From NCBI GenBank assembly GCA_013815385.1, contig JACDGL010000002.1:124001-188000 (forward strand): a stretch of DNA of 64,000 nucleotides. Reading direction: 5' to 3'. The position numbers were made by a program, and so were the translations under genes. Each line of letters opens with the position of its first letter. The first letter of the stretch is position 1. The stretch is from Taibaiella sp. Lineage in GTDB: Bacteria; Bacteroidota; Bacteroidia; Chitinophagales; Chitinophagaceae. Shown in pieces: positions 4,702-9,908 of this stretch. The notes beneath the pieces are model-generated. The model searched no databases. It saw nothing but the letters and a program-made list of their open reading frames with translations, and had not been told where the DNA came from.

Positions 4702-5040
4702 TTAACCAATCTGCGGAATCATTTTTTCAATTTTCACTTTCAAATCAGGTATATACTCACTTAATGTTTCCCAAACGCGCCTCCAGTTTACAAATCCGTA
4801 CGCATGAACATAATAATTACGCGCGGATTTAAGCAGTTGCCATTCTACCTCACTAAACCGAGTTTTTAATTCATTGGATAGTTTGGATGAATATTCACCT
4901 ATTACTACCACTTTCATCATACATGCATCTCTAAGAACGTCGTTTCTAAGAAATAGATCCTCGTCAACATCAACTAAATAGCTCTGCAATATTTCTATCT
5001 GCGACAAGATATATTCTAATAAATCTCTGTCATCACTCAT
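4702..5040 (-). CDS. hepT: HepT-like RNase toxin (DUF86 / HepT domain)
   Basis: This is a probable HEPN-fold ribonuclease toxin of the MntA-HepT family. It has 112 residues, mostly helical. The catalytic R-x4-H-x-Y motif is present as RNYYVHAY at residues 74-81 (Arg74, His79, Tyr81). In characterised members the partner MntA neutralises HepT by adding AMP to the tyrosine of this motif. The start ATG overlaps the mntA end by four bases, which means tight coupling. The DNA is visibly more AT-rich than the surrounding nuo genes, suggesting a later arrival. Family assignment is firm from motif and gene pairing; activity is inferred. Confidence 0.85.
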   Translation of the reverse strand: MSDDRDLLEYILSQIEILQSYLVDVDEDLFLRNDVLRDACMMKVVVIGEYSSKLSNELKTRFSEVEWQLLKSARNYYVHAYGFVNWRRVWETLSEYIPDLKVKIEKMIPQIG

Positions 5041-5336
5041 GCAGAAAATATTTGAATTTTATCTTTGCTAATGTTATTTTTAAAACGTTGGCTCGTAATT
5101 TCTTCTTCTACTAATTCCACCTTTCTTTTAAACTTTTCTTCTAATCCTATTTGGAACCTTAAAGTATCGAACATGGATACTAGTTTTTTGCTATCATCAT
5201 ATTCTACCAAAAGATCTACGTCGCTATTTTCTTTTGCCTCGCCCCGTGCAAACGAACCAAACAGATAAACGTTTTTTACCGGCTTATCTTTAAAGTAGTC
5301 GGCAACTGTAGTTTTTATTTGCTGTATCGTAAGCAT
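5037..5336 (-). CDS. mntA: MntA-like nucleotidyltransferase antitoxin
   Basis: This is a minimal nucleotidyltransferase of the polymerase beta superfamily, the antitoxin partner of HepT. It has 99 residues, the normal length for stand-alone MNT proteins. The signature G-S-x10-D-x-D is intact: FGSFARGE with Gly27-Ser28, and SDVDLLVEY with Asp39 and Asp41 as metal ligands. It lies 10 bp downstream of nuoH and overlaps hepT. The order antitoxin then toxin is the usual one. Known homologues transfer AMP to the toxin; that this pair does so is inference. No mobile-element ends were found next to the pair. Confidence 0.85.
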   Translation of the reverse strand: MLTIQQIKTTVADYFKDKPVKNVYLFGSFARGEAKENSDVDLLVEYDDSKKLVSMFDTLRFQIGLEEKFKRKVELVEEEITSQRFKNNISKDKIQIFSA

Positions 5337-6498: not shown

Positions 6499-7590
6499 TC
6501 AATTATTCAAATCAGTAGTCTTAAAATCTTCTGAGTGTGCGGGGCCCTCTATTTTAGAAAGATCTACTTCCCGGCGGTTCACATCACTAACAGTATGGAT
6601 ATTCATCAACAGTTTAGGTTGCTTGCCTATTACCTTGTCAATAAGCACCGGGGCTTTATGTGTATTTACATAATGACCCTGAGATATAACACTCATACGG
6701 CTGATCTTTGAAGGCCCTTCTATTACCCAGTCTTTTACCTCTTTCTTGTGAAAGCGGCACTCGTTACAGATCCATTCTTCTACTTCGCCAAACTTGTTCT
6801 TACGGGCTGTAACACGGAATACCTCATCACCACGCATCCACAGGCGCACCTTACTGGTACACGTAGGGCAGTCGCGGTGGGCATCTACCGGTTTGGTAAA
6901 CCATACCCGATTCTTAAAGCGGAATGTCTTATCAGTTAATGCACCTACGGGGCATACATCTATTACATTGCCTATAAATTCGTTATCAAGAGATTTACCT
7001 AAGTAGGTACTGATGGCTGAGTGATCGCCACGGTCCAGTACGCCATGCTGGCGACAACCGGTAACTTCATCGGCAGTAAATACACAACGATAGCATAGGA
7101 TGCAACGTGTCATGTGCAACTGAATGAACGGGCCAATATCTTCCTTCTCGAAGGTGCGGCGGTCAAACTCGTAACGGGTTTTTTCAGAGCCATGCTGGTA
7201 ACTCAGATCTTGCAGGTCGCACTCGCCGGCCTGGTCACAAACCGGGCAATCGAGTGGATGGTTGAGCAGCAGAAACTCTACCACACCCTTTCGGGCATCA
7301 ATTACTTTATCTGAAGTAATATTCTTTACCTCCATGCCATCCATTACAGTGGTACGGCAGCTTGCTACCAGCTTGGGCATAGGGCGGGGATCTTTATCAG
7401 AACCCTTGCTTACCTCTACCAGGCATGTGCGGCATTTACCACCACTCTCCTTCAGATTTGTGTAATAGCACATAGCAGGCGGCGTAACATCGCCCCCTAT
7501 CATGCGTGCAGCATTAAGTATAGTAGTACCGGCAGGCACTTCTATTTGTATGTTATCTACAGTTACTTTGAACTTTGGTTGCTCAGACAT
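6499..7590 (-). CDS. nuoG: Short-form NADH-quinone oxidoreductase subunit G
   Basis: This is the peripheral-arm subunit that relays electrons from NuoE/F to NuoI. It has 363 residues, far shorter than the roughly 700-900 residues of proteobacterial NuoG, because the C-terminal molybdopterin-like domain is absent. What remains is ordered: a [2Fe-2S] domain (Cys41, Cys53, Cys56, Cys78), the His-Cys3 cluster (His111, Cys115, Cys118, Cys124), and a [4Fe-4S] site (Cys163, Cys166, Cys169, Cys213). A residual CPTC...CNEC region lies near residues 240-280. All relay ligands are intact and the frame ends cleanly, so it is a short functional form, known in Bacteroidota, not a pseudogene. Confidence 0.93.
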   Translation of the reverse strand: MSEQPKFKVTVDNIQIEVPAGTTILNAARMIGGDVTPPAMCYYTNLKESGGKCRTCLVEVSKGSDKDPRPMPKLVASCRTTVMDGMEVKNITSDKVIDARKGVVEFLLLNHPLDCPVCDQAGECDLQDLSYQHGSEKTRYEFDRRTFEKEDIGPFIQLHMTRCILCYRCVFTADEVTGCRQHGVLDRGDHSAISTYLGKSLDNEFIGNVIDVCPVGALTDKTFRFKNRVWFTKPVDAHRDCPTCTSKVRLWMRGDEVFRVTARKNKFGEVEEWICNECRFHKKEVKDWVIEGPSKISRMSVISQGHYVNTHKAPVLIDKVIGKQPKLLMNIHTVSDVNRREVDLSKIEGPAHSEDFKTTDLNN

Positions 7591-7593
7591 AAT

Positions 7594-7632
7594 CTTTGCG
7601 GTTCCTTTGCGTCAAACTTTGCGTTCTTAGCG
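7594..7632 (-). repeat. Left CGCWAAG array (four units)
   Basis: Plus-strand units CTTTGCG at 7594, 7605 and 7617 and CTTAGCG at 7626. It lies between the nuoG ATG and the stop of the GxxExxY gene. It is the inverted counterpart of the array at 8022-8058. Confidence 0.75.
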
Positions 7633-7635
7633 GTT

Positions 7636-8013
7636 TTATAAGTTATTTACTACTCTTCTTATTCCATCCTTCATTCTAACCACATTAAAATTCATCAGCA
7701 ATCCCAATTTTATTCCTGTCAATTTTAAATAGGTCAATACTTGTGCTAGGTGTACCTCATTTAATGCTTCTACTGCCTTTACCTCTAATATTAATTTCCC
7801 TTCTACCATAATATCACATCGAAACCCACACTCTAATTTTATATCTTCAAAAACTAATGGTATCGGTTTTTGTCGCTCTACATATAATCCTGTCTTTATT
7901 AATCTATGTACCAGGCACATTTCATATACTGATTCTAAAAGACCTGGTCCTAATTGTTTATGAACATTTATCGCTTCACCAATTATTATATTTGATAATT
8001 CATTTTCTGTCAT
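7636..8013 (-). CDS. GxxExxY family protein (PD-(D/E)xK nuclease-like fold)
   Basis: This is a 125-residue protein of the GxxExxY family, which is related to PD-(D/E)xK nucleases; its cellular role is not established. The name-giving motif is GLLESVY at residues 24-30. A nuclease-like core is visible, with Asp67 (CDIMVEG) followed by EVK at residues 77-79, the D...ExK pattern of metal-dependent nucleases. It interrupts the nuo operon, is AT-rich compared with its neighbours, and is enclosed by two facing CGCWAAG arrays. Members of this family are often found singly and scattered in genomes. Nuclease activity here is inference from the motif only. Confidence 0.85.
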   Translation of the reverse strand: MTENELSNIIIGEAINVHKQLGPGLLESVYEMCLVHRLIKTGLYVERQKPIPLVFEDIKLECGFRCDIMVEGKLILEVKAVEALNEVHLAQVLTYLKLTGIKLGLLMNFNVVRMKDGIRRVVNNL

Positions 8014-8021
8014 AATTTAAC

Positions 8022-8058
8022 CGCAAAGGGCGCTAAGATTTCGCAAAGAGCCGCTAAG
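8022..8058 (+). repeat. Right CGCWAAG array (four units)
   Basis: Units CGCAAAG at 8022 and 8042 and CGCTAAG at 8031 and 8052 lie between the start of the GxxExxY gene and the nuoF stop. The orientation is opposite to the left array. Confidence 0.75.
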
Positions 8059-8065
8059 ATGATCT

Positions 8066-9421
8066 TTATATTGCCACAGGTACGTGAATAGGGTCAGCAT
8101 AATGAGCTAATCCATAATTACGCTCCTGAGATTCTGCGGGATTCAGTACATGCCATTCAAACTCATCCCTGAAATGCCTGATGGCTGCTGCAACCGGCCA
8201 TGCGGCAGCATCGCCTAGCGGGCATATGGTGTTCCCTTCTATCTTGCGCTGTATATCCCAAAGCAGGTCTATATCGCTTATCTTTCCTTTCCCGTACTCT
8301 ATGTTCTTTAATATCTTGTACATCCAGCCGGTGCCCTCCCGACAAGGGCTGCACTGCCCACAACTTTCATGATTGTAAAACCGGGCAAGCGTCATTGTAT
8401 GGCGCACTACGCACTGGTCCTCATCAAACACCTCGAAACCGCCAGAACCCATCATGGAGCCAGTAGTAAAGCCCCCATCTGCAAGACCTTCGTAACTCAT
8501 GATGCGCGTTTCGCCTTTTGCAGTTTTCAGCAATAGGTTAGCCGGAAGAATGGGTACCGATGATCCACCGGGTATACAGGCCTTCAGTTTTTTACCTTTT
8601 GGTATACCGCCACAATATTCATCGCTGTAGATAAACTCCTCGACAGAAATGGTCATATCAATTTCGTAAATGCCGGGCTTGTTTATATTGCCACAGGCAG
8701 ATAACAACTTAGTACCGGTAGATTTACCAATGCCAATTTTAGCATACTCTGCACCGCCCATGTTAATAATAGGCACTACTGCTGCCAGTGTTTCCACATT
8801 GTTCACTACTGTAGGGCGCATCCATACACCTTGTATGGCAGGGAAAGGAGGCTTGATACGCGGATTGCCACGCTTGCCTTCCAGACTCTCTATCAAGGCT
8901 GTTTCTTCTCCGCATATATATGCTCCTGCACCGCGGTGCACGTATATCTCACAATCGAAACCTGTACCCAGTATGTTTTTACCAAGCCAGCCGTTCAGTT
9001 TTGCTTCGGCTATGGCCTGTTCCAATATTTCTGCTACCCACACATATTCTCCACGGATGTATATATAGGTATGGTGGCTACCCAATGCAAAACTACTGAC
9101 GATAAGACCCTCTATAAGCAAGTGCGGAAGAAACTCCATCAGGTACCTGTCTTTAAATGTACCTGGCTCTGATTCGTCTGCATTACAAACCAGGTGGCGA
9201 GGCACACCTTCGGGCTTAGCGAGAAAGCCCCACTTCATACCCGTAGGGAAGCCTGCACCGCCGCGACCACGTAAGCCGCTTTTCTTTACCTCTTCTACTA
9301 TTTCTTCCGGTGTCATTTTCAACGCCTTCTCAACAGACCGGTAACCGCCATTTTTGCGGTAGGCATCGTAAAAACGGATACCTTCTATATGTGCGTGCTC
9401 TAATAAAAGTTTTACTCCCAT
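8066..9421 (-). CDS. nuoF: NADH-quinone oxidoreductase subunit F (NADH/FMN-binding)
   Basis: This is the complex I subunit that oxidises NADH, holding FMN and cluster N3. It has 451 residues, the usual size. The glycine-rich nucleotide site is GRGGAGFPTGMKWGF near residue 53, followed by CNADESEPGTFKDRYLME, the FMN/NADH pocket. The C-terminal [4Fe-4S] ligands are in ESCGQCSPCREGTGWM near residue 356 and the later NTICPLGDAAAWP. It is one of three nuo genes with a small GC palindrome just upstream of its ATG. Upstream lies the NlpE-like lipoprotein gene and downstream the GxxExxY cassette. Confidence 0.97.
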   Translation of the reverse strand: MGVKLLLEHAHIEGIRFYDAYRKNGGYRSVEKALKMTPEEIVEEVKKSGLRGRGGAGFPTGMKWGFLAKPEGVPRHLVCNADESEPGTFKDRYLMEFLPHLLIEGLIVSSFALGSHHTYIYIRGEYVWVAEILEQAIAEAKLNGWLGKNILGTGFDCEIYVHRGAGAYICGEETALIESLEGKRGNPRIKPPFPAIQGVWMRPTVVNNVETLAAVVPIINMGGAEYAKIGIGKSTGTKLLSACGNINKPGIYEIDMTISVEEFIYSDEYCGGIPKGKKLKACIPGGSSVPILPANLLLKTAKGETRIMSYEGLADGGFTTGSMMGSGGFEVFDEDQCVVRHTMTLARFYNHESCGQCSPCREGTGWMYKILKNIEYGKGKISDIDLLWDIQRKIEGNTICPLGDAAAWPVAAAIRHFRDEFEWHVLNPAESQERNYGLAHYADPIHVPVAI

Positions 9422-9455: not shown

Positions 9456-9908
9456 TTATTGTTTCTTTAAAATGAACTTGTCCGCGATAGGGCCTGTTAT
9501 CTTCTCGCCATTCATATCCAGCTGCACAAGAGATTCGTCTTCTATTTTATACCTATGCGGCCTCATGCCTTTCAGGCTATCAAGTGTCAGTATGCTATCC
9601 GTTACTGTCCAATGTGTTCCTATTGTCTTATTCGTTTCTTTTCTGCCGGCATATTGCTCATCTATCTCGTAGCTCTTGTCATCATTTAAGATAAGCGTTG
9701 TCTTTATCCCATCACAATCCGTACAGGGCAAATTGCCGGTATAGGTGCCAGATATTCCAGATAAAGATTCTGCCGCTTCCACTACTGCTGCGAGGCCAGG
9801 TGTGCCAGGCATCTCTGTATTGTTGTTACTTTCATTCTTGCTATGATTACCACAGCTGACGAAAAGCAAAGAACTAAACACTGTTAAAATAATAAGCTTG
9901 CTTTTCAT
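9456..9908 (-). CDS. NlpE-like copper resistance/envelope-stress lipoprotein
   Basis: This is a probable outer-membrane or periplasm-facing lipoprotein with an NlpE N-terminal domain. In E. coli NlpE senses copper and surface stress through the Cpx system; no Cpx partner is seen here. It has 150 residues: a signal peptide ending in the lipobox LLFVSC (Cys19), a low-complexity Asn/Glu linker, then the NlpE domain with GTYTGNLPCTDCDGIKTTL containing the conserved C-x2-C (Cys62, Cys65). The second OB-fold domain of E. coli NlpE is absent, as in many short homologues. It lies between nuoE and nuoF, 9 bp from nuoE, so it is probably co-transcribed with complex I. Confidence 0.82.
   Translation of the reverse strand: MKSKLIILTVFSSLLFVSCGNHSKNESNNNTEMPGTPGLAAVVEAAESLSGISGTYTGNLPCTDCDGIKTTLILNDDKSYEIDEQYAGRKETNKTIGTHWTVTDSILTLDSLKGMRPHRYKIEDESLVQLDMNGEKITGPIADKFILKKQ

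Follow-up and report, generated by a model that had tools for sequence, protein, structure and literature searches.

The stretch of DNA analysed here (the window, 64 kb at its full length) carries a nuo operon in which nuoF and nuoG are separated by a compact cassette. The cassette consists of the gene of a GxxExxY nuclease, whose reading frame is intact, between two facing four-unit arrays of the word CGCWAAG. The units are spaced 9–12 nt from start to start, and arrays and gene occupy the entire junction, from the edge of the nuoG start codon at 7590 to the end of the nuoF ORF at 8066. This arrangement had been described in an earlier note, and the positions of the units are exactly as claimed there (Table 1).

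Table 1. Positions in the window of the cassette, its components and the adjoining host genes.
Feature	Position	Strand	Remarks
Whole cassette, both arrays and gene	7591..8065	-	Fills the nuoF-nuoG junction
GxxExxY nuclease gene, 125 aa	7636..8013	-	E27, D67, E77, K79, Q91 and Y95 present
3′ array, four CGCWAAG units	7594..7632	-	Reads CTTWGCG on the + strand
Units of the 3′ array	7594-7600, 7605-7611, 7617-7623, 7626-7632	-	Word positions
5′ array, four CGCWAAG units	8022..8058	+	Word positions
Units of the 5′ array	8022-8028, 8031-8037, 8042-8048, 8052-8058	+	Word positions
Codons of residues 122-125, C-terminal tail	7639..7650	-	Covary with base 2 of the word; protein ends RRVVNNL
Codons of residues 7-8 (S, N)	7990..7995	-	Covary, more weakly, with base 5 of the word
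nuoF, upstream host gene	8066..9421	-	ORF end at 8066
nuoG (short form), downstream host gene	6499..7590	-	ORF start at 7590

Single CGCWAAG words are common in the window (23 matches against 15.7 expected, with as many in 9 of 100 shuffles), and counting them as evidence was dropped since the number is not above chance. The exact three-unit pattern with spacers of 1–8 nt was found twice forward and twice in reverse in the 3.25 Mb genome, all at the cassette; this search covered the exact word pattern, and its backward control gave no match. In the 64 kb, the cassette is the sole inverted-repeat pair scoring at least 32 around a gene-sized loop (score 33), and the genome holds one GxxExxY match. 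The ORF listing contains no transposase inside the cassette, none of the PADLOC defence models matches up to E 0.01, and Rfam gives no match at 7400-8250 up to E 1.

The window protein scores 144.7 bits against TIGR04256 (cut-off 35) and 141.5 against PF13366 (cut-off 22), the latter being the only family found at E 0.001 or better. It has every conserved GxxExxY and PD-(D/E)XK residue tested. Across the elements these are G24 (151/151), E27 (151/151) and Y30 (150/151) for the first set, and D67 (150/151), E77 (149/150), K79 (150/150), Q91 (147/149) and Y95 (146/149) for the second. A structure was predicted with a pLDDT of 95.8. The nearest fold is 4ic1 (SSO0001; Z 9.7, rmsd 4.6 over 101 residues), followed by BpuSI (Z 8.3); a Z of 9.7 is modestly above the 7–8 that is typical of models without a clear relative. 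Foldseek gave nothing below E 0.001 for this model, and its matches, which include lambda and LHK exonuclease, are restriction-endonuclease-like. According to the model, the window protein is thus of restriction-endonuclease-like fold and nearest to SSO0001, which we take to be a Cas4 protein, the match being one at the superfamily level. By sequence, solved relatives amounted to one at E 0.51 with the protein as query and none with a profile. The protein shares with the Cas4/lambda exonuclease branch of PD-(D/E)XK enzymes both the fold and the layout D..ExK..QxxxY, as its motifs are usually named. However, it has 125 residues against 202 in SSO0001, and it is encoded inside its own repeat arrays. 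Matches to GxxExxY genes occur in 150 of the 244 genomes of the host family, with up to 15 per genome.

A census of the family comprised 156 GxxExxY genes from 154 loci. When 7-mers were counted de novo in the 5′ flanks of 155 elements, CACAGAG (47 against 1 in the far flanks) and CGCAAAG (35 against 4) were recovered, together with CACAAAG and CGCAGAG. The reverse complements of these words are enriched in the 3′ flanks, and at a further distance of 700 nt the words are seldom seen. In 116 of 151 elements the inverted repeats between the flanks score above the 95th percentile of the far flanks; scores of at least 32, a threshold that misses many elements with visible arrays, were reached near the gene in 71/151 and in the far flanks in 0/143. 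Around gene-sized loops, four pairs with such scores were found in 864 kb, one of them the window cassette, and one in the reversed control. Three consecutive units of the pattern CRC[ATG]RAG gave 178 matches in the 122 kb that lie no more than 400 nt from the gene versus 38 in 554 kb beyond (overlapping matches included), and three in 800 kb of an unselected contig; at least one such match was present in 66 of 153 elements. Other words, of the types CACAGAT, ATTAAG, GATT/TCTGAAC and CGGATT, occupy separate parts of the protein tree, and 33 of 151 elements have no classified word.

The census supports the earlier proposal of a small cassette that has no transposase and uses the repeats as its ends. 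It is not a one-off element but belongs to a large family in which CGCWAAG is one of several words, and the suggestion that it is domesticated found no support. The proposed linkage of arrays to GxxExxY genes holds insofar as the density of arrays is about 20 times higher up to 400 nt from such a gene than farther away; a few gene-less arrays exist.

Most cassettes share the direction of the operon. Both neighbours could be called at 113 of 155 elements; of these, 96 run in the same direction as both neighbours, 5 run against both and 12 are mixed. At tandem junctions (n = 101), 96 cassettes are co-directional and 5 antisense. Of 63 cases measured, 24 have the first exact unit starting 1–10 nt downstream of the host stop codon. 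The idea of a fixed TTAA target site was considered and rejected: TTAAC often precedes the first unit (in 79 elements, 51–62% per column at the 5′ side), but it could not be told apart from the word or linked to an empty site.

The two arms look like inverted copies in which the spacers have drifted and the words have been retained. Spacer lengths are mirrored between the arms (43 of 81 equal, against 15.4 expected), and in the minimum-energy fold of the cassette RNA the arms pair around the gene (z -2.28; 3 of 100 shuffles as good). These features, and the co-directionality of the cassette with the operon, would suit an RNA-level element comparable to the intervening sequences (IVS) of 23S rRNA. 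Under this explanation the arrays pair in the polycistronic transcript and RNase III cuts the stem; the cassette is tolerated as it leaves the nuo mRNA, and the arrays are kept for pairing. IVS anatomy, as given in PMC4990558, is in its favour. Both have a small ORF of some 120 aa that is flanked by inverted ends and lies within a transcribed unit, and the likeness extends to the protein family PF05635 (23S_rRNA_IVP), whose genes also occur in intergenic cassettes bounded by arrays, one of them at the nuoF-nuoG junction of L022. Thirty PF05635 loci were fetched, of which 13 passed the motif filter. Ten of these share the anatomy: their facing repeats, made of other words, exceed the threshold used for the GxxExxY elements (far flanks 0/13). 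The similar anatomy of this unrelated family qualifies the earlier interpretation and counts against the selfish-cassette reading given below. Since the architecture is not limited to nucleases, this finding favours either the RNA-level explanation or a way of life common to two protein families.

Nevertheless, the window protein belongs to PF13366 and lies between protein genes of an operon, outside rRNA, and its ends are word arrays whose units show no special match between pairing partners. Units in mirror positions resemble each other no more than units that are not paired (0.869 versus 0.868 at base 2 in 65 elements; 0.507 between elements), so pairing alone does not explain why the words match. 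The letters of the spacers agree between the arms little more often than when shuffled (43% against 36%, with a shuffle maximum of 47%). Moreover, an RNA-level element gives no reason for the protein tail to track the word, as described below, and we regard this explanation as unlikely. Four-helix PF05635 genes outside rRNA (L185-L214, e.g., L192, L193 and L196) have facing arrays of other words, such as GGATGACGGATG or GTATTAAG.

Comparison of the sequences shows that the words vary among elements, agree between the two arms and track the lineage of the protein rather than the host genome. The arms share base 2 in 89 of 97 elements and base 5 in 84 of 97 (48.9 when shuffled, in both cases). 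On the protein tree the word classes change 20 times, against a shuffled mean of 52.7, and none of 200 shuffles was as low. A scan of the protein columns for information on base 2 singled out L125 (0.79 bits), N124 (0.55) and V122 (0.45), the column median being 0.08. These residues form part of a tail motif, R-x-[V/A]-N-x-[L/F/M/Y], near the end of the protein: with the motif the words are of the CGC type, otherwise CAC. A motif placed anywhere in the final 14 residues predicts base 2 (A or G) in 94 of 97 elements (tail with CGC 41, tail with CAC 0, no tail with CAC 53, no tail with CGC 3). The strict motif at the very end predicts 92 of 97 (39, 0, 53 and 5, respectively). The last-14 version was adopted after the exceptions to the strict motif had been seen, and the rule was derived from the same 97 elements on which it is scored. 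Split by sampling half, it fits 36/36 and 58/61, which is a consistency check, as the rule was drawn from all 97.

The 5′ arm, which lies about 375 nt from the tail codons, agrees with the adjacent 3′ arm. With the strict motif, the 5′ arm alone gives 37 elements with tail and CGC, 2 with tail and CAC, 52 without tail and CAC and 6 without tail and CGC; for the 3′ arm alone the numbers are 38, 1, 49 and 6. Among disjoint nearest pairs of at least 40% identity, the tail differs in 41 of 43 when base 2 differs and in 2 of 47 when it is the same. Four of the sampled genomes have at least two such elements; each of the four contains both words, and in all nine of their elements the word matches the tail. 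Eight later loci were also read, one of which (L337) was set aside as broken. The three with two-sided arrays (L335, L336 and L339) are all CAC, lack the motif and fit the rule, giving a test of the CAC side. In L338 the CGC units are confined to the 5′ side; its RIVNDY stands at the homologous place and the protein extends beyond it, so that this locus fits the rule by alignment position and fails the last-14 version. L340-L343 have no such arrays. These comparisons show that base 2 of the word goes with tail residues 122–125.

It could be argued that the repeats homogenise by slippage and hairpin-templated copying, are merely linked to the gene, and covary with the protein through shared ancestry. 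The words do cluster on the protein tree, and their spacing persists while the spacers drift. Well-supported independent contrasts are also few: a tree built without the tail has three for base 2 on well-supported branches, 2.8 in the same direction and none contrary, too few for a sign test to reach significance; the tree itself is poorly resolved. However, tail and word switch together in 12 of 13 close pairs (at least 70% identity in the protein body), the tail tracks not just the 3′ arm next to it but also the remote 5′ arm, residues 122–125 give the strongest base-2 signal, and locus G+C does not differ (0.405 versus 0.415). Passive co-inheritance is accordingly a rather improbable explanation. 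That the arrays are host regulatory sites or operon insulators bound by a host factor is very improbable: the cassettes do sit in core operons (nuo, the annotated fabD-fabG, and, by our own reading of flanking translations, suf and a split metH), but two or more word classes coexist in 13 sampled genomes, the exact three-unit array occurs nowhere else in the window's genome, and the arrays concentrate at GxxExxY genes.

A second link is suggestive and weaker than that of base 2: base 5 of the word may be connected with residues 7–8. K, N or R at residue 8 pairs with A at base 5, and other residues with G, in 73 of 89 elements (39 and 34, with 6 and 10 exceptions); this residue class was picked after the letters had been seen, and of the 97 elements seven were not anchored and one had no majority base. 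In the nearest-pair comparison, a difference at base 5 comes with one at residue 8 in 32 of 40 pairs, but residue 8 also differs in 28 of the 47 pairs that share base 5; for residue 7 the numbers are 31 of 40 and 13 of 47. Read by hand in the later loci, residue 8 fits base 5 in L335, L336 and L339 and not in L338. In the last of these, a Sphingomonas parapaucimobilis plasmid record, the GxxExxY gene lies between fabD and fabG of a fatty-acid operon, and its units, present at the 5′ side alone, read CGCGAAG.

The nuoF-nuoG junction was surveyed in 23 genomes of the host family with a close NuoF, the window's own included. A GxxExxY gene is present in five (the window, L015, L016, L023 and L025) and no gene in 11, where the gaps reach up to 113 bp (L020 was judged by eye, and L028 has an apparent array remnant). 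L022 carries the PF05635 gene, L012 what appears by eye to be a decayed relative of it, and L027 another gene; in four genomes the motif search did not find nuoG within the flank. The arrangement is thus absent from some relatives, contrary to the outcome that the earlier note named as refuting its reading. Further GxxExxY genes occupy this junction in L055, L059, L065 and L165 and, by reading of the flanks, in L170. The protein tree unites the window protein with L055, L059, L065 and L165 (support 99); the arrays of this clade are all oriented ‘out’, and its five members are all located at nuoF-nuoG. L015, L016, L023, L025 and L170 form a separate clade (support 98); the arrays of L015 and L016 are classified as ‘in’, and those of the other three, with too few exact units to classify, are ‘in’ by eye. 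Since two GxxExxY clades occupy it, the junction was probably filled at least twice. No empty site carrying the words was found at nuoF-nuoG. In L014, of another genus, the junction is filled by a gene-less tandem array of GTGAATGA-like units.

Our preferred reading, held with moderate confidence, is that the block is a copy of a selfish cassette that lacks a transposase and encodes a Cas4-like nuclease able to recognise the arrays at its ends. Recognition of the words by the encoded protein is probable on the covariation of protein and word, and to this extent the earlier idea that the repeats are binding sites of the cassette's own product probably holds. That such recognition also drives movement is a more tentative proposition. 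The cassette, which sits co-directionally between operon genes, would probably be read through from the host operon. The protein would then bind the word units on double-stranded DNA, as units lie on both strands in every facing pair, and might cut or nick the arrays or their vicinity. Recombination by the host at such a break could copy the cassette, or gene-less palindromic derivatives of it, into new or allelic junctions.

Several observations bear indirectly on movement. Two clades share one junction, and sites are filled or empty in different relatives, the contrast lying between genera. The cassettes of L090 and L093 are 97–99% identical, against 63–86% per 100 bp in their flanks, and the high identity extends about 70 bp into the next gene. 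Gene-less arrays, palindromic and by eye between genes, were seen in two carrier genomes, with seven overlapping matches at five places in 1.6 Mb of three carriers; there were none in 0.8 Mb of two non-carriers, but one of the carriers likewise had none in its 400 kb. The 2.4 Mb sampled for them contained no GxxExxY ORF. These gene-less palindromes look like derivatives of the cassette. A transposition event, a target duplication or a sharp pair of empty and filled sites was not seen, the nuoF-nuoG junctions being too diverged to reveal duplications. Because several Flavobacterium-like sets and the window's own clade are co-located relatives, many copies appear to be vertically inherited. Individual palindromes of such words lie at about 13271 in L282, about 9760-9830 in L247 and about 2900-3060 in L228, by eye between host genes and in two cases close to a stop codon. 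Transport by phages or plasmids was considered and dropped: there was no match among 50,697 phage records, whereas 72,556 plasmid records gave 8 and viral contigs one locus.

Among known systems, REPIN/RAYT is similar in that a nuclease-type gene lies beside short repeats, and its gene-less inverted pairs elsewhere may have a counterpart here. RAYTs are HUH/Y1 enzymes, whereas the cassette protein is of the PD-(D/E)XK type and the window protein has no HUH/Y1 match. The repeats here are tandem 7-nt words, not one REP hairpin, and gene-less copies are rare: such pairs were found in two other genomes, and none of the exact word in the window's genome. According to PMC3116915, which also describes the gene-less pairs of REPIN/RAYT, repeat types associate with particular RAYTs and RAYTs are single-copy, unlike the up to 15 gene matches per genome here. 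Homing endonuclease genes are likewise small, free-standing nuclease genes found at the same junction in different lineages, and the L090/L093 tract is reminiscent of co-conversion. Homing sites are normally destroyed by insertion, whereas the words of the cassette flank the gene and remain after insertion. No description of such cassettes was found in the literature covered, with most subscription journals outside its scope; in its text the repeat words were not found, nor were four-helix, inverted repeat and Bacteroidetes found together. The covariation of protein tail and repeat letters in many related elements suggests an undescribed kind of selfish DNA cassette whose protein would read the cassette's ends.

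A wider reading, which we put forward as a tentative possibility, is that these are widespread transposase-free mobile elements, in which a Cas4-like nuclease of 125 residues with a two-part code (the C-terminal tail for base 2, the start of the first helix for base 5) for the 7-nt words on either side of its gene moves itself and gene-less palindromes. The unrelated PF05635 genes with their own words would be a parallel, the same layout having arisen with two protein families. If the selfish-cassette reading is true, a large orphan nuclease family, the one matched in 150 of 244 genomes, would gain a function, and the reading would account for repeats of the ACCACAGAGGCACAGAG kind beside GxxExxY genes. 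It would also offer natural word-protein pairs with which a compact DNA-recognition code can be tested by exchange of the last residues.

Two other genes were noted in the nuo operon of the window, both on the minus strand. An NlpE-domain gene (PF04170) lies at 9456-9908 between nuoE and nuoF. A HepT-like/nucleotidyltransferase pair resembling MntA-HepT lies at 4702-5336, between nuoH and the gene of a nuoI-looking 4Fe-4S protein; being co-directional, it is a second possible insertion in this operon.
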